DNA from: Acidimicrobiia bacterium
GTDB lineage: Bacteria; Actinomycetota; Acidimicrobiia; Spongiisociales; UBA11373
Assembly (NCBI GenBank): GCA_030584185.1
Contig: CP129495.1
Coordinates: 558,001-622,000 of the forward strand
Direction: 5' to 3'
DNA: 64,000 nucleotides
Shown here one piece after another: positions 11,808 through 64,000 of this stretch. The position numbers were made by a program, and so were the translations under genes. Each line of letters opens with the position of its first letter. The stretch's first letter is position 1. The notes beneath the pieces are model-generated. The model was given only the letters and a program-made list of their open reading frames with translations. It was not told the origin of the DNA and did not search any database.

Positions 11808-13933
11808 GAATCCGACGGTAGCGCCTCGGCCGCCGGGATCAGCAGGTCGAGTCGCAGACGGATCGTCCCCTCGACGTCGGTGCGCAGCACCTCGGCCCCG
11901 GCCGTCTCCAGGGCTTCGATCACCGCCGGCGAGGGATGCCCAAAGTCGTTGGGGCCCACCGAGACGACCGCCAGGCGAGGCTCGCATGCCACCAGCCAAT
12001 TCAGATCCGACGTGGCCGCCCCCTGGTGCGGGACCTTGAGCACGTCGCTCGGCACCGGCCGGAGTTCCGCCTGCGCCACCGCCTCGACGTCGCCGGCGAA
12101 CAGGACCGAGACGCCCGCCGCCATCACCCGGACCACCAGAGACCCGTCGTTGGGCGACTCGTAGCGACGCAGCGGTCCCAGCACCTCGAGGGTGAACGAC
12201 CCGAGTCGAGCCACGGTGCCGGGACCCGGCTGCTCGACGACCGTCCCCGCCAGCAGACGCTCGGCCACGATGGCATCCAGAGGCGAATCCTCTCCGAGCT
12301 GAGGAGGGTGCCACATCCGGGCAATCGGAACGTCCAGCCCGATCAGCCCCGTGGTGTGATCGGCGTGTCGATGAGAGACCACGAGCAGATCGACGTGATC
12401 CACGCCTGCACTCCTCAGGTGGGCGCGCAGGACGGCGCCATCGGGACCGCCGTCGATGAGCACCACCTCCCCCGAGGGGCCACGCAACAGGGCGGCATCA
12501 CCCTGCCCCACGTCGAGGAACGAGACCTCGGGACCGGCCGGAGGGGCCGGCGGCATGGCCGAGACCAGGAGCAGTGCCGCGGCGACGACGGTGGCCGGCG
12601 GGCGAAGCTGTCTCACCCATGTCACCGCGGCGACCGCTCCCGCCAGCAGTGCTCCCGTGACCGCATCGACCTGAGGAAGGTCTGCCGTGGCCCTGGCGAT
12701 CCCAAGCACCGACCAGGCCGCCAGGTCGGCGAGCGGAAGCAGCACCGGCAGGGCCAGGGCCCCCACACCCCCGAAGATGGTGGCCGTCGCAACCAGCGGC
12801 GCTGCCACCACGTTGGCTGCCGGCGCGAACAGCGGGATGCTCCCGAAGTGAAGGAGGAGCAAGGGAGCCACCGCCACCTGCGCCGACACGGTGGCTCCGA
12901 GGGCAGTCCACAGCCAGCCGGGCCTCCGGCCCTGCCAGGTCCGGTGGCCGGCGAGGATGCCGAGCGTGGCCGCAACCGAGAGCTGGAACCCCGGGTCGGC
13001 CGCCAGGGCCGGAGCGGCGGCGAGCAGCCCGGTGATGGCCCACCCCAGTGCGGCCCATGGCGAGGGCACCACCCCCCGGAGTCGGCCAAGCAGCAGCAGT
13101 GCCGCCATGGCCGCCGCCCGCATCACGGATGGCTCCCAGCGGGTGACGACCACGAACACGCCCAGCCCGACCAGCCCGGCGACTGCCCTACGGCGTGGGG
13201 ACCACCCCAGCGGGCCGCAGGCGACCCACCATGCCCCCAGGAACAGAGCGACATTGCTCCCCGACACGGCGACGAAGTGACTCAGTCCGGCGAGCCGCAG
13301 CGCCTCTCGATCGGGCGTCGGAAGCGCCGACACATCTCCGATCAGGAACCCGGAGATCAGACCCCGCTGGGACCCTCGGGCGTCACCCCCGAGGCGATCG
13401 ACCACGCGCCGCCGGAGCCGGTTCCCGATTCGCATCAGGGGATTGGCCGACTCCCCGAGACGCTCCAGGGACTCGGCCTCGACCTCTCCCGAAACCCATC
13501 CGCTTCGCATCCGAAACACCGTCGGGCGAACGCGGCCTGATGCCATCACCGGCTCGCCGGCGGCGAGATCCGACACCTCGCCCCTCACCAGCACGGCCGG
13601 TCCATCGGTGCTGATCCAGGTCGTGCCATCGAACAGGTCGGTGACCCTCACCACCAGCGACCCGGACTCCCCAAGCCCGCTTGGATCGCCCGCCGCCACC
13701 CCGAGGAAGGTGACCCTCCCCTGCCAACCGATCGGGTCCGGCGCCGTGTCGCGACCGGCGGCGAGATGGCCGCCGAAGGCTGCCGCCGCCAGCAACAGGA
13801 CCGCTGCTGCTGCCCGCCACCTGCACAGAACCAGCATCACCAGGACCGCCGGCAGGCCGAGCCAGACGACCGATCGCCCCCACGGCTGCAACCCCGCCAG
13901 GGCGCCGATCCAGGATGTCGACGCCGCCAGCAC
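11804..13933 (-). CDS. comEC: ComEC/Rec2-family DNA uptake channel protein
   Basis: A 709-aa polytopic membrane protein with all ComEC domains. An N-terminal OB-like extracytoplasmic region comes first (residues 65-160). The competence membrane domain follows, with the conserved GLSHFVAVSGSNVALFLG. The C-terminal metallo-beta-lactamase-like nuclease domain has FLDVGQGDAALLRG, VVLIDGG and the metal motif SHRHADH. ComEC passes single-stranded DNA into the cytoplasm and probably degrades the other strand. With comEA upstream it suggests potential for natural transformation, although no pilus genes are in the window. Confidence 0.92.
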   Translation of the reverse strand: MLAASTSWIGALAGLQPWGRSVVWLGLPAVLVMLVLCRWRAAAAVLLLAAAAFGGHLAAGRDTAPDPIGWQGRVTFLGVAAGDPSGLGESGSLVVRVTDLFDGTTWISTDGPAVLVRGEVSDLAAGEPVMASGRVRPTVFRMRSGWVSGEVEAESLERLGESANPLMRIGNRLRRRVVDRLGGDARGSQRGLISGFLIGDVSALPTPDREALRLAGLSHFVAVSGSNVALFLGAWWVACGPLGWSPRRRAVAGLVGLGVFVVVTRWEPSVMRAAAMAALLLLGRLRGVVPSPWAALGWAITGLLAAAPALAADPGFQLSVAATLGILAGHRTWQGRRPGWLWTALGATVSAQVAVAPLLLLHFGSIPLFAPAANVVAAPLVATATIFGGVGALALPVLLPLADLAAWSVLGIARATADLPQVDAVTGALLAGAVAAVTWVRQLRPPATVVAAALLLVSAMPPAPPAGPEVSFLDVGQGDAALLRGPSGEVVLIDGGPDGAVLRAHLRSAGVDHVDLLVVSHRHADHTTGLIGLDVPIARMWHPPQLGEDSPLDAIVAERLLAGTVVEQPGPGTVARLGSFTLEVLGPLRRYESPNDGSLVVRVMAAGVSVLFAGDVEAVAQAELRPVPSDVLKVPHQGAATSDLNWLVACEPRLAVVSVGPNDFGHPSPAVIEALETAGAEVLRTDVEGTIRLRLDLLIPAAEALPSDS

Positions 13934-15600: not shown

Positions 15601-18341
15601 CGGGTGACGATGCTGACGAGGTGGGGCGGCTTGACGATGACTCGGGCCGGTTGGGTCCCCGCCAGCCTCTCTCGAACCCGCGGCGAATCGAGCGCCATGG
15701 CCTTGGCCTCGGCGTCGCCGATCCCCGGATCGACCTCGATGCGATCTCGCACCTTGCCGTCGACCTGAACCACCATGGTCACCCGATCCTCGGCGGCGAG
15801 CAGGGGGTCGAAATCGGGCCAGGGGGCGTAGGCCACCGAACCCCGACCCCCCAGCCGCTCCCAGAGCTCTTCGGACACATGGGGAGCGAGAGGCGCCAGC
15901 AACCGCACCAACGCCTCGGCCACGGGTCGCGGCACACGCTCCAGGCCGACCAGGGCATTGTTCAGCTCGAAGAGGCGGGCGATGGCGGTGTTGAACCCGA
16001 GGTGATCCATGTCGGCGGTGACCGCCGCCACGGTGCGGTGCAGGAGTCGCTCCAACGACTCGTCGGACGCCGCCTCGGTCACCAGCACCTCACCGGTGTC
16101 GCGGTCGATCAGATTGCGCCACAGGCGTTGCAGGAACCTGGTGACACCCACGATGTCGCGCGTGGTCCACGGCTTGGAGGCATCCAGCGGCCCCATGAAC
16201 ATCTCGTACAGGCGCAGCGTGTCGGCGCCGTGCTCACCGACGAACTCGTCCGGGGCGATCGAATTCTTCTTCGACTTCCCCATGCTCCCGGTGACCCGGG
16301 TCACCGGCTTCCCCTCGTAGATGTAGTCGGATCCGACCTGTTCCACCTTCGCCGCCGGCACGTAGAAGCCGCGCTCGTCCTGGAAGGCGTCGGCCAGGAT
16401 GTACCCCTGGTTGAAGAGCCGACCGAATGGCTCGGCGGTGGAGACGTGGCCCAGGTCGTGGAGCACCTTGTGCCAGAACCGGGCGTAGAGGAGGTGCAAC
16501 ACGGCGTGTTCGACACCGCCCACGTAGAGGTCGACCCCGGTCTCCCCCATCCAGTAACGCTCCTCCTCCACGCCGGCGAGTGCCCGATCGTTCCGAGGAT
16601 CGATGAAGCGGAGGTAGTACCAGCAGGAGCCGGCCCACTGGGGCATCGTGTTCAGCTCACGGCGATACACCACCCCGTCGATCTCGACCTGCTTCCACTC
16701 CTCGGGAGCGTTGCCCAGCATGGGTGTCGGATCGGCTTCGGGATCGTCCATCGAAGCCGGCCGGTAGTCCTCCACCTCGGGCAGCAGCAGCGGGAGGTCG
16801 GCATCGTCCACGGGTCGTAGCTCGCCATCCGGACCGTGAAGGATCGGGATCGGCTCACCCCAGTAGCGCTGCCTGCTGAACAGCCAGTCCCGCAGCTTGT
16901 AGGAGACGGCGCCCTCGCCGTGCCCGTTGGCGCCGAGCCAGTCGATGATGGCGCGCTTGGCCTCGCCGACGGACATCCCGTCGAGGAATCCGCTGTTGAT
17001 CGCCGGCCCTTCGCCCACATAGGCCTTGCCGTCGAAGCCGCCGGGCGGCGCGACGGTGCGGAGTATCGGTAGGTCGAAGCGCTCGGCGAACTCCCAGTCG
17101 CGCTCGTCCTCTCCGGGTACGGCCATGATCGCCCCGGTGCCGTAACCCATCAGCACGTAGTCGGCGATGAAGATCGGGATCGTCTCGCCGTTCGCCGGGT
17201 TGATGCAGAACGACCCGGTGAAGACTCCGGTCTTGTCCTGCGTCTCGACCTGTCGATCCAGGTCGGATCGGCGCAGCGCCTCCCGGCGATAGGCGTCCAC
17301 CGCTTCTCCGGGGGTTGCCGATCCCCCCGTCCACTGCGGCAGTGCGCCGTCGGGCCAGGCGGAGGGCGCCAGCACTTCGACCAGGGGGTGTTCCGGTGCC
17401 AGGACCATGTAGGTGGCGCCGAAGATGGTGTCGGGTCGCGTGGTGAACACCTCGATGACGTCGGTGGTACCGGCCACCGGGAAGCGGATCGTGGCCCCTT
17501 CGCTGCGCCCGATCCAGTTGGTCTGCATCGCCTTTACCGACTCCGGCCAGTCGACCAGGTCGAGATCGTCGATCAGCCGGTCGGCGTAGGCGGTGATGCG
17601 CAACATCCACTGCCGCAGCGGCCGCCGGAACACCGGATGGTCCCCCCGTTCCGAGCGACCGTCGCGGGTGACCTCCTCGTTGGCCAGAACCGTTCCCAAG
17701 GCCGGGCACCAGTTGACGGTGACCTCGTCCAGGTAGGCGAGGCGATGGCCGTCGATGAAGGCCCGTCGCTCATTCTGGTCCAGATCCGACCAGGGACGGT
17801 CTCCCGCCTCCCGGCCCCCCGACTCCAGTTCGACGATCAACTCGGCCACGGGGCGAGCCCGGCGCGCCGCGGCGTCGAACCACGAGTCGAACAGACGAAG
17901 GAATATCCACTGGGTCCAGCGGTAGTAGTCCGGGTCGATGGTGCTCACCTTGCGGTCCCAGTCGTAGGAGAGGCCGATCGACCTCAGCTGGCGCTCGTAG
18001 GTGGCGATGTTGCGCTCCGTGGTGACCCGTGGATGGATCCCGGTCTCGACGGCGTACTGCTCGGCGGGGAGGCCGAAGGCGTCGAACCCCATCGGATGCA
18101 GCACGTTGCAGCCGCGCATCCGCTGGTACCGGGAGTAGATGTCGGTGCCGATGTAACCCACCGGGTGCCCGACGTGGAGGCCCTCGCCCGACGGGTAGGG
18201 GAACATGTCGAGCACGTACATCTTGGGGCGTGAGGCGTCGAATCCCTCGTCGCCCGGGTTGGAGACCCTGAAGGTGCCCTCGCGCTCCCAGCGCTCCTGC
18301 CATTTGGTCTCGATCAGCCGATGGTCGTAGCCGTGTTCCAT
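15597..18341 (-). CDS. leuS: Leucyl-tRNA synthetase
   Basis: A 914-aa class I synthetase. The HIGH-equivalent motif is HVGHPVGY near the N-terminus. The editing (CP1) domain contains FTTRPDTIFGATY. The KMSKS-equivalent is seen as MGKSKKNSI, and the WAGSCWYYLRFIDP block is diagnostic. The ATG at 18341 follows a GGTGTCCCA context; a GTG two codons earlier is also possible. The frame stays open a further 110 codons upstream into the MFS gene, but that stretch has no family similarity. Confidence 0.96.
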   Translation of the reverse strand: MEHGYDHRLIETKWQERWEREGTFRVSNPGDEGFDASRPKMYVLDMFPYPSGEGLHVGHPVGYIGTDIYSRYQRMRGCNVLHPMGFDAFGLPAEQYAVETGIHPRVTTERNIATYERQLRSIGLSYDWDRKVSTIDPDYYRWTQWIFLRLFDSWFDAAARRARPVAELIVELESGGREAGDRPWSDLDQNERRAFIDGHRLAYLDEVTVNWCPALGTVLANEEVTRDGRSERGDHPVFRRPLRQWMLRITAYADRLIDDLDLVDWPESVKAMQTNWIGRSEGATIRFPVAGTTDVIEVFTTRPDTIFGATYMVLAPEHPLVEVLAPSAWPDGALPQWTGGSATPGEAVDAYRREALRRSDLDRQVETQDKTGVFTGSFCINPANGETIPIFIADYVLMGYGTGAIMAVPGEDERDWEFAERFDLPILRTVAPPGGFDGKAYVGEGPAINSGFLDGMSVGEAKRAIIDWLGANGHGEGAVSYKLRDWLFSRQRYWGEPIPILHGPDGELRPVDDADLPLLLPEVEDYRPASMDDPEADPTPMLGNAPEEWKQVEIDGVVYRRELNTMPQWAGSCWYYLRFIDPRNDRALAGVEEERYWMGETGVDLYVGGVEHAVLHLLYARFWHKVLHDLGHVSTAEPFGRLFNQGYILADAFQDERGFYVPAAKVEQVGSDYIYEGKPVTRVTGSMGKSKKNSIAPDEFVGEHGADTLRLYEMFMGPLDASKPWTTRDIVGVTRFLQRLWRNLIDRDTGEVLVTEAASDESLERLLHRTVAAVTADMDHLGFNTAIARLFELNNALVGLERVPRPVAEALVRLLAPLAPHVSEELWERLGGRGSVAYAPWPDFDPLLAAEDRVTMVVQVDGKVRDRIEVDPGIGDAEAKAMALDSPRVRERLAGTQPARVIVKPPHLVSIVTR

Positions 18342-61594: not shown

Positions 61595-61599
61595 TTCGG

Positions 61600-61675
61600 G
61601 GTGACCGAGGGGACTTGAACCCCCGACCTCCAGGGCCACAACCTGGCGCTCTAACCAAACTGAGCTACGGCCACC
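61600..61675 (-). tRNA. tRNA-His (anticodon GTG)
   Basis: 76 nt including the extra 5' G (G-1) that pairs with discriminator C73, the identity mark of histidine tRNAs. Acceptor GTGGCCG pairs with CGGTCAC; anticodon stem CCAGG/CCTGG encloses TTGTGGC. No CCA is encoded. Confidence 0.94.
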
Positions 61676-61695
61676 ATGCCAGAGGCCCGGTGGAG

Positions 61696-61768
61696 TGCCC
61701 CCGGAGGGATTCGAACCCCCGACCAAGAGCTTAGAAGGCTCCTGCTCTGTCCCCTGAGCTACGGGGGC
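61696..61768 (-). tRNA. tRNA-Arg (anticodon TCT)
   Basis: 73 nt. Acceptor GCCCCCG pairs with CGGGGGC. The anticodon loop is CTTCTAA, giving TCT. The T-loop is TTCGAAT. No CCA is encoded. Confidence 0.94.
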
Positions 61769-61803
61769 GACATGGCGCCGGGCGCCATCCACCGGGACCG
61801 CTG

Positions 61804-61875
<72 letters not shown>

Positions 61876-61950
61876 GCGAATCCCACCGCAGGATAGTTTC
61901 GCCGCGCCGCCATCGGCACTTCCGCCCGGGCGACCCGGATACGACGCTCG

Positions 61951-62024
61951 TCGGGCTGGCCGGATTCGAACCGACGACCCCCTGCTCCCAAAGCAGGTGC
62001 GCTACCAAGCTGCGCCACAGCCCG
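61951..62024 (-). tRNA. tRNA-Pro (anticodon TGG)
   Basis: 74 nt. Acceptor CGGGCTG pairs with CAGCCCG, with the C1-G72 pair typical of proline tRNAs. The anticodon stem CCTGC/GCAGG encloses TTTGGGA, giving TGG. It is the first of the four minus-strand tRNAs. Confidence 0.94.
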
Positions 62025-62090
62025 CCGTCCCATTGTGCCAAACCCGGGGCGGTTCCGAGTGATCCGTGGGTCGGGGCTATCCTCCACGAC

Positions 62091-62162
62091 GGGTCGCTAG
62101 CTCAACGGCAGAGCATCGGACTCTTAATCCGCAGGTTCAGGGTTCGAATCCCTGGCGACCCA
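62091..62162 (+). tRNA. tRNA-Lys (anticodon CTT)
   Basis: 72 nt. Acceptor GGGTCGC pairs with GCGACCC. The anticodon stem TCGGA/TCCGC encloses CTCTTAA, giving CTT. The T-loop is TTCGAAT. It is divergent from tRNA-Pro. Confidence 0.93.
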
Positions 62163-62181
62163 CTTCCCTCGGGGATGGCTG

Positions 62182-62266
62182 GCGGGTGTAGCCGAATCGG
62201 TACAGGCGCCGGACTTAGGATCCGGTGGGCTTCGGCCCGTTGTGGGTTCGAGTCCCACCGCCCGCA
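62182..62266 (+). tRNA. tRNA-Leu (anticodon TAG)
   Basis: 85 nt with a long variable arm, as in class II tRNAs. Acceptor GCGGGTG pairs with CGCCCGC with one G-U pair; the anticodon stem CCGGA/TCCGG encloses CTTAGGA, giving TAG. It is 19 bases behind tRNA-Lys. Confidence 0.93.
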
Positions 62267-62349
62267 CTCGGTCGCCACCGTCGCGGCCCACGACTGAGGA
62301 CCGCGATCGGTGCCCACCGGCCGGGCGTTCGGCAGGGCCCCCGGCTGGC

Positions 62350-63975
62350 TCAGCGGGCGCGGGCGGGGACCCGCAACTGGGTGACCCGCCGGAGGGTCTG
62401 CTGGGGGATGTGTCTGTCATGGCGCCTGCCGTCGGCGGTCCACGCCGAGCGCCTCTCTGCGGAGACGGTGATGAGGATTGCCCCGGCCCCTCTCCCCAAG
62501 GTGATCTCGTGGAGCCCCGACGAAGGGTCGTTCCACAGGGCGACCACCCGAGACGCCCTCGTTCCTTGTGGTCGCGAGCGGCGCACCATGCCGAACGAGC
62601 TGAGCGTGAGAACCGCGGAACCGGTCTCGTCGGTGATGACCGATGCGTATCGATGGGGCCACCGGGTGGCCAGCTGCGGTCCGTCGAGAAGCACGGCGAC
62701 CACCAGGCTCGGTCCGATCCGACGCAGCAGGTCGGACACCTCGTCCATGCGGGCAAGGTCTTCGCAGACCAGCGGGGCGGCCGTCCCTCCGGCGCCGACA
62801 TCGATGATCTGCAGGGTCCGCGGCGGAAGCTCGATGCCCTCCCACCAGTGCCGGGCCGGGTCGAGCGACCGGCTGAGGCGGTACTGGCTGATCTGAGCCC
62901 TGTCGATCGACCATCGATGATGCTTCTCCTGCCGGTACCTCTGCCAGCCGTGATCGGTGAGCAGGCCAATGTGGACGTGGTTTCCCCCAAGTCCGCCTCG
63001 AGGCGCCGGTCGGCGGACACCGGCGACCAGGAAGGGAACCCGGCGGCGTTCGAGCAGTTCCTCCATGAGCGAGACCTCTGACTCGGCCAGCGCAGCCTCG
63101 GGGAGGATCACCGCGTCAACACCTCCCTCCCGGGCGGTGGCCTCCTCGAGGAGGCGCTCGACGTATGCAACGTCGAGCACCGTGTCCGGAGAGAACTCGA
63201 AGAAGCCGAAGGCGGATCGGTCCATATCCACCGGAGTCTCGATCGGCTTGAAGGCCCGGGCATCGACTCGTAAGGGCCAGGGAAGGAGCATCACCCTGCG
63301 GTCGGCGACCGGACCCGATGGCTCGCCTGCGGTGACGATGGGATCGATCCTGTGCCAGGAGACGTCCACCGCCTCGTACATCAGGGCAAGATACCGGGAC
63401 AGCGATCGAATCGTGATCCCCCGCAGAGCCAGGTGGGTCTTGGGGGTGATGCGCACCCTCGCCGGCGAGATCCTCGACAGGGAGCCACGGCCGGTGAGCA
63501 ACGCCCAGGCGCGACCCTCGAAGCTGTCGGCCCCCGATCCCGGATCGGAGCCGGACAACCCGCTGCACGCCTCATCGGCCATGGCGTGAAGGGTGATCAA
63601 CGCCACCGCAACCCGTTCGGCGCCGCCCCGGCGCAGAGACTCCAGAGAGAGCCCGCGATGGCGGGTCACCACCTCCCACTCCCGGGCGACCGGCTCCGGG
63701 ACCGTGCCCCCTTCCGACACCGCCCTCCGCCACTCCTCGGCAGCAACCCGAACCATCTCGTGCCATCCGGACTCCGGTGGCCACCGGCTTCCCGCAGGCG
63801 GGGACACCGCGAGCCGGTAAGCCTCGGTGTGGTCGAGGACCAGGTTGGTCACGGCGAAGACGTCCGGCGGCCAGGCACAGATCTCATCCCATGCCGGCGA
63901 GGTGGTGAAGGCGCCCACATAGGAGTCGATCGTGGGCGAAGCCCGTTCGGCATCAACCGAATCCGCTGCCCTCAT
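62350..63975 (-). CDS. Nitrilase-like (carbon-nitrogen hydrolase) protein, possibly defence-related
   Basis: A 541-aa protein. The C-terminal half (about residues 225-510) has the carbon-nitrogen hydrolase triad: E293 in VILPEAAL, K351 in EKHHRW and C404 in PLVCEDLAR. Blocks such as LLDGPQLATRWPHRYASV and SAVLTLSSFGM resemble, as I recall, the nitrilase domain fused to defence-associated reverse transcriptases (DRT type 1). The N-terminal 220 residues are helical and carry no reverse-transcriptase motif, so this would be a stand-alone relative. Substrate unknown. ATG 63975 has GAGGACC upstream. It is convergent with tRNA-Leu, and nothing upstream is visible before the window ends. Confidence 0.72.
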   Translation of the reverse strand: MRAADSVDAERASPTIDSYVGAFTTSPAWDEICAWPPDVFAVTNLVLDHTEAYRLAVSPPAGSRWPPESGWHEMVRVAAEEWRRAVSEGGTVPEPVAREWEVVTRHRGLSLESLRRGGAERVAVALITLHAMADEACSGLSGSDPGSGADSFEGRAWALLTGRGSLSRISPARVRITPKTHLALRGITIRSLSRYLALMYEAVDVSWHRIDPIVTAGEPSGPVADRRVMLLPWPLRVDARAFKPIETPVDMDRSAFGFFEFSPDTVLDVAYVERLLEEATAREGGVDAVILPEAALAESEVSLMEELLERRRVPFLVAGVRRPAPRGGLGGNHVHIGLLTDHGWQRYRQEKHHRWSIDRAQISQYRLSRSLDPARHWWEGIELPPRTLQIIDVGAGGTAAPLVCEDLARMDEVSDLLRRIGPSLVVAVLLDGPQLATRWPHRYASVITDETGSAVLTLSSFGMVRRSRPQGTRASRVVALWNDPSSGLHEITLGRGAGAILITVSAERRSAWTADGRRHDRHIPQQTLRRVTQLRVPARAR

Positions 63976-64000
63976 CGTTACTGGTCCTCCGTGCGCATCC

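Follow-up and report, generated by a model that had tools for sequence, protein, structure and literature searches.

A gene in the stretch of Acidimicrobiia DNA that we have analysed (64,000 nucleotides, here called the window; bases 558001-622000 of a 2.21-Mb single-contig genome) encodes a protein with a predicted nitrilase fold and an invariant Glu-Lys-Cys triad. It belongs to an undescribed family that is scattered between phyla and carried on mobile elements: plasmids, prophages and islands. The members are probably phage-defence effectors, stand-alone nitrilases free of any reverse transcriptase (RT), that act as a single gene or, in the gammaproteobacteria, as a pair of genes. A literature search gave no earlier description of the family and no experiment on any member; its coverage was incomplete, and a recent description may be missed.

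The gene and its product

The key features of the locus are summarized in Table 1. A preliminary description had placed an open reading frame here and proposed E293, K351 and C404 as a carbon-nitrogen hydrolase triad. The frame is present, on the minus strand, which had not been given, and the three residues lie at exactly those positions. Scans of the protein against Pfam, PADLOC (the 2023 version of PADLOC-DB), NCBIfam and PHROG gave no match above noise, and a sequence search of the PDB gave no meaningful match. Because none of these models matches the protein, the recognition of its nitrilase blocks exceeds what standard annotation detects. The earlier reading that the protein has no RT motifs agrees with the Pfam, PADLOC and NCBIfam scans, in which no RT was found. 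The G+C content of the gene is 68.6%, similar to that of its surroundings.

Table 1. The nitrilase gene, its conserved elements and the adjoining tRNA genes, in window coordinates.
Feature	Position	Strand	Basis
Nitrilase-fold protein gene, 541 aa	62350..63975	minus	ORF with ATG start; homologues over most of length
Predicted nitrilase (carbon-nitrogen hydrolase) domain, residues 225-519	62419..63303	minus	AlphaFold2 model and fold search, Z 15.8
E293, presumed general base	63097..63099	minus	Invariant 19/19
K351, within family motif KHHRW	62923..62925	minus	Invariant 19/19
E379, candidate second glutamate of a catalytic tetrad	62839..62841	minus	Invariant in 17/17 core members
C404, presumed nucleophile, within motif CEDLAR	62764..62766	minus	Invariant 19/19
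N-terminal region, about residues 27-200, predicted mostly helical	63376..63897	minus	Family alignment; low-confidence models
tRNA cluster His-Arg-Gly-Pro (-) / Lys-Leu (+), six genes	61598..62267		ARAGORN and Rfam; marks variable site

Fold of the protein

An AlphaFold2 model built from seven sequences has a mean pLDDT of 59 overall; in the nitrilase region many blocks reach 80-93, and the core strands are well supported. The nitrilase region of the model matches nitrilases with Z = 15.8 (VIA), an rmsd of 3.9 over 225 residues and 11% identity, with 9wpo as the top row. Foldseek returned 35 PDB chains at E<=1e-3, every one of them of the nitrilase superfamily. The matches include formamidases, Nit2, ureidopropionases and cyanide hydratases; as comparisons of a model, these top rows are tied metabolic enzymes that identify the fold and not the function.

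The window protein has no match to Pfam CN_hydrolase at the cut-off, and among the core members of the family that were scanned only that of Deinococcus gave a signal, with E = 0.21; the divergent protein of G418 (L003) passes at 4.8e-6. A match to this model is a criterion of detection rather than a defining trait; superfamily membership is decided by fold and triad. By its predicted alpha-beta-beta-alpha fold and its Glu-Lys-Cys triad, the window protein is a member of the nitrilase superfamily. Profile-profile comparison with three carbon-nitrogen hydrolases, for which the alignment is too shallow, gave a short match at the catalytic cysteine with a probability of 55%, and a PDB search with the family profile gave weak carbamoylase, NAD synthetase and DRT1 rows.

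For the N-terminal 200 residues the prediction is helical, at low confidence. Modelled alone they have a mean pLDDT of 43, and this model was left out of the fold search. The helical N-terminal half of the preliminary description is retained at that low confidence, and no domain assignment was reached. In the family alignment the region ends in a conserved motif of the LPK.RTP..G.T.R.LS. type that includes K179 and G186; across the family it is a VLPK.RTP..G.T.R.LS-type block preceding the nitrilase domain.

A scattered family

We found 16 further full-length relatives with 26-45% identity to the window protein, spanning Actinomycetota, Deinococcota and Alpha-, Beta- and Gammaproteobacteria. 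All keep the E-K-C triad. Homologues occur in Kribbella (45% identical, found by a pattern scan of 85,000 genomes), in G655 (a second genome of the same class as the window genome, found by a class-wide profile search), in Deinococcus, Massilia, Cupriavidus, Vibrio, rhizobia and E. coli W, and in prophages. The genome, plasmid and viral collections searched are samples. Thirteen plasmid records from ten genera were found by tblastn, and five contigs of IMG/VR matched, three of them with a full-length copy. No phage genome record carries a family member, and two queries of viral collections were also empty.

The triad is invariant in an alignment of 19 proteins. Two of these, L003 (G418) and L015 (Azospirillum), are long-branch outliers that may belong outside the family, and they were left out of the core of 17 members. 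Within the core K179, N332, H353, R354, W355, Q361, E379 and D406 are also invariant, as are DGPQ431-434 and RW438-439. The lysine lies in the family motif KHHRW and the cysteine in CEDLAR, which is followed by DGPQ..RW. Judged by this conservation the window gene is a real gene, and invariance of the catalytic residues across phyla at such low identity indicates an active enzyme under selection.

In the tree the window protein groups with the other two actinobacterial members (support 86/99), and therefore the donor need not be distant. In both of those members a gene for an XRE/MmyB-like regulator lies upstream in the opposite direction (L002 8310-9335; L027 232-1218, both minus). The two regulators are 38% identical to each other. 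They are common in Actinomycetota and a coincidence is possible.

A variable tRNA site in the window genome

The preliminary description had placed the gene beside a tRNA cluster, and six tRNA genes are indeed found there. The nitrilase gene lies between tRNA-Leu (62182-62267) and a gene for an alpha/beta-hydrolase-like lipoprotein, past which come lipoprotein, usp, rdgB and rph genes (names read by eye from the sequences). In related genomes the same tRNA set (His, Arg, Gly, Pro, Lys, Leu) adjoins tig, and it lies between tig and usp/rph where one contig spans both ends. The cargo among the tRNAs differs from genome to genome. G003 and G005 are near-empty, G010 has an IS3-type transposase and metabolic genes, in G001 and G009 a large enzyme gene separates tRNA-Lys from tRNA-Leu, and G008 and G011 have other cargo. 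The nitrilase gene is absent from all 13 other genomes of the same taxonomic family examined. On these genome comparisons the cluster is a variable insertion site. Across the clusters beside tig (L060-L069 compared with that of the window) tRNA-Leu, Lys and Pro vary in their order and strand.

The suggestion of a site where islands insert holds in that the site is variable; near the window copy we detected no integrase, no direct repeat of the tRNA end and no promoter or terminator consensus. The region beyond position 64000 had been proposed as a place to look for RT or other defence genes. Reading by eye the ORFs of the 14 kb beyond the window gene, we recognised neither, the genes there including the housekeeping rdgB, rph and usp. 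An ORF of 288 aa in that region (L004 15415-16281, minus; C1:631415-632281, beyond the window) has a long, very acidic Ser-Asp repeat (SDD/DDSDD) as its second half. A match to ordinary nitrilases and a conserved neighbourhood had been held to count against the preliminary description. Half of this holds: the fold does match ordinary nitrilases and amidases, as that of any nitrilase would, but the cargo is not conserved, the nitrilase gene being absent from the 13 related genomes.

An exchangeable slot in E. coli

Out of 5426 E. coli genomes, 17 carry the nitrilase gene, E. coli W among them, and always on the chromosome. The E. coli W gene (WP_000776118.1) and an overlapping ORF of 88 aa (WP_001291041.1) are flanked on one side by a type I restriction-modification operon (hsdS), and on the other by genes for a 5'-nucleotidase and a phosphorothioate-dependent restriction endonuclease, an integrase and tRNA-Leu. 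Other E. coli share this arrangement, with one copy beside tRNA-Phe. The type I genes are found in 400 genomes and the downstream pair in 47, compared with 17 for the nitrilase, which is therefore variable cargo.

The element of strains MEI4B-1023 and Cn5 is the same, with matching integrase and flanks, but carries dsr1, annotated as an anti-phage defence-associated sirtuin, in the nitrilase slot. For MEI4B-1023 the match to E. coli W is at 95% identity, and the edges of the replaced segment were located by blastn. One falls within hsdS, past base 13548 of the E. coli W locus (L029), bar a short shared piece; the other is at base 17036, where the 5'-nucleotidase gene starts and homology returns. 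Between the same flanks another E. coli strain carries a DEAD/DEAH helicase and a hypothetical gene, which precede the 5'-nucleotidase; in one more strain, which shares the type I system, hsdS is followed by an AAA ATPase and an HNH endonuclease.

Comparison of L029 13549-17035 with L091 3141-9000 shows the nitrilase and its partner swapped for dsr1 plus a hypothetical gene of 687 nt. The occupants of this slot make it a good place for finding unknown defence genes, the 687-nt gene beside dsr1 being one candidate. The nitrilase gene is frameshifted in two of the four E. coli islands checked (L030 ZYB39 and L031 200177), both of which retain the partner gene. The other two (L032 and L034) have an intact frame, although its start is annotated too late.

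A small partner protein

A small ORF of 88-108 aa overlaps the stop codon of the nitrilase gene in all four gammaproteobacterial loci (E. coli W, Vibrio, L021 and L022). The Kribbella and G655 proteins are extended at the C-terminus, and the extension can be loosely aligned with this small partner. The window protein ends before the extension, and its gene leaves no space before tRNA-Leu for a partner. The partner (P0003) has no plasmid relative by tblastn. The partner may play a regulatory role.

Relatives on plasmids and in prophages

On plasmid pCMU01 of Methylorubrum extorquens CM4 a relative lies a few genes from a complete Pycsar pair (PycC 2e-220, PycTIR 4.5e-92). In Agrobacterium S7/73 the relative is near genes of the DndB/DpdB family and beside a gene for a P-loop (GTPase-like) protein of 755 aa. 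The latter (L009 5286-7553) lies 12 bases upstream of the relative and its product is below the Pfam cut-off; it is possibly an operon partner or a separate defence gene. The Massilia relative, on a plasmid with a mer transposon-type region, has in its vicinity a short KAP-type NTPase with a match to PifA. Prophage-type contigs carry the gene as well. In L021 it adjoins a P2-like integrase and repressor and has a third-codon G+C content of 27%, compared with about 60% in the tail genes, and in L022 and L023 it lies among phage genes. For many plasmid relatives (Kribbella, Deinococcus, Bradyrhizobium, A. vaccinii) the neighbours are not clearly defence genes; these neighbourhoods, and those of Vibrio and Cupriavidus, contain transposases, toxin-antitoxin genes or nothing telling. 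Placement in a defence island or hotspot therefore holds for relatives (the E. coli slot, the Pycsar neighbour and the prophage cargo) and not for the window copy, and this neighbour evidence consists of individual loci.

A probable role in phage defence

The defence role is suggested by several lines of evidence. In the E. coli slot the nitrilase and its partner are exchanged as a cassette for dsr1, and the gene is variable cargo in that species. The pCMU01 relative adjoins Pycsar and that of Agrobacterium S7/73 lies near DndB/DpdB-family genes. Prophage-type contigs carry the gene, in one case as low-GC cargo beside a P2-like integrase. The active-site residues are invariant across phyla, and nitrilase effectors are known in DRT1 (PMC13275509) and in the UG5 RT-nitrilase (PMC9122126). 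Against this reading, the window copy has no recognised defence gene within 14 kb and no partner, and the fold is common to ordinary amidases. The preliminary description had proposed a defence or signalling enzyme of the DRT1 lineage. The hydrolase fold and triad, the lack of an RT, the mobility and the tRNA site accord with the first part, and the relatives point to defence; the assignment to the DRT1 lineage is not upheld.

In the mechanism that we propose, the helical N-terminal region (and in some branches the small helical C-terminal domain or partner) would hold the nitrilase inactive or sense infection. The N-terminal region is the obvious candidate for the phage sensor. Phage activity would release the nitrilase, and the E-K-C active site would hydrolyse a C-N bond of, or modify, some essential metabolite bearing an amide or amine, hydrolysis of such a molecule on infection being suggested by analogy with DRT1. 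The cell would then be stopped before phages mature, i.e. by abortive infection. It is quite possible, if short of probable, that the nitrilase alone serves as sensor and effector, without an RT or a cyclic-nucleotide sensor domain, from Acidimicrobiia-type actinobacteria to E. coli, and with a helical regulator in some branches. An RT-free nitrilase family in similar genomic slots would separate the effector from the DNA-synthesis machinery, and would provide a simpler protein for finding the substrate. The natural copy of nitrilase plus partner in E. coli W makes the question directly testable.

The family might instead be an accessory amidase or nitrilase for nitrogen scavenging or detoxification that is spread by plasmids and has no anti-phage role. 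The metabolic enzymes among the fold matches and the many plasmid members that lie among metabolic genes would fit this, but we consider it improbable. The window protein is unmatched by the metabolic nitrilase models of Pfam and NCBIfam, and the conserved N-terminal region of about 200 residues is foreign to ordinary nitrilases. Moreover no transporter or pathway gene is conserved as a neighbour, and the gene is placed in defence slots in E. coli, Methylorubrum, Agrobacterium and prophages. Still less probable is a toxin-antitoxin or addiction module in which the nitrilase is the toxin and the small helical protein (in Actinomycetota a C-terminal fusion) the antitoxin, stabilising mobile elements with defence perhaps secondary. 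The overlapping ORF of all four gammaproteobacterial loci, the alignable extension in Kribbella and G655 and the carriage on plasmids and prophages are as expected for such a module. Yet the partner is absent from the window copy and from most alpha- and betaproteobacterial members, the fused extension aligns weakly, and frameshifted nitrilase copies persist in two E. coli that retain the partner gene.

Another alternative concerns ancestry, and overlaps the phage-defence reading on function. The family could belong to the DRT1/UG5 lineage, either as the nitrilase half of an RT-nitrilase after loss of the RT or as the stock of the DRT nitrilases, and would still be a toxic effector. Fold and triad are the same as in DRT1. 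The RT_UG5-nitrilase model of PADLOC matches four of the ten relatives scanned, all of them core members, with E = 0.001-0.012 and within the nitrilase part, and these four have no Pfam CN_hydrolase match at E up to 10. Yet no PADLOC model matches the window protein itself. Among the same ten relatives the RTasNitrilase (DRT1-type) model matches one, with E = 0.072. The DRT1 structure 9YFD was found at E = 0.8 with the first family alignment and was gone with a larger one; DRT1 is not among the rows of the fold search, an absence that is no argument against kinship. The N-terminal region is conserved and specific to the family, and is not recognised as an RT remnant by the models used. We think descent within that lineage rather unlikely. 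The DRT1 lineage given in the preliminary description is not upheld by these profile and structure searches, and the fused RT domain of DRT1 is absent: there is no RT in the protein, none was recognised in the next 14 kb, and the two RT-nitrilase models have no match in the whole window genome. Elsewhere in Actinomycetota those models match RT parts only, or almost nothing. The marginal profile matches suggest that UG5-type nitrilases may be the nearest described relatives. A specific kinship with DRT1, or descent from it, is unproven by sequence comparison.

Comparison with known nitrilases

The metabolic nitrilases (Nit2/omega-amidase, formamidase AmiF, beta-ureidopropionase and the NAD synthetase glutaminase) have the fold over residues 225-519 and the triad in common with the window protein. 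Their identity to it is 10-18%, below the Pfam cut-off or undetected, and the window family adds KHHRW, CEDLAR, DGPQ..RW and the N-terminal region of about 200 residues.

In phage defence nitrilases have been described as uncommon, and those known so far are fused to RTs, in DRT1 and UG5 (PMC13275509). The CARF-nitrilase (PADLOC PDLC01989) is also a stand-alone nitrilase, with a regulatory domain in place of the RT. Its model is matched by the divergent G418 protein (L003) alone, with E = 1e-4, and by none of the core members, and no CARF domain was detected. The UG5 RT-nitrilase of P4-like satellites, which is accompanied by a transmembrane protein, also protects against phage (PMC9122126). 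It shares with the window family the nitrilase domain, the carriage as mobile defence cargo and the marginal profile matches of four relatives. It differs in that the window family has no RT and no transmembrane partner was seen, and that the window protein is unmatched.

In DRT type 1 (the UG1 RT-nitrilase; PDB 9YFD) abortive infection depends on the nitrilase, whose substrate is an open question, an essential molecule bearing an amide or amine being suspected (PMC13275509). The window family has no reverse transcriptase and no protein-primed DNA, its N-terminal region is different, and the sequence similarity to the DRT1 nitrilase is not significant. Nevertheless the two have in common the nitrilase fold, the E-K-C residues, their occurrence among defence genes and, by analogy, probably the role of effector in abortive infection.
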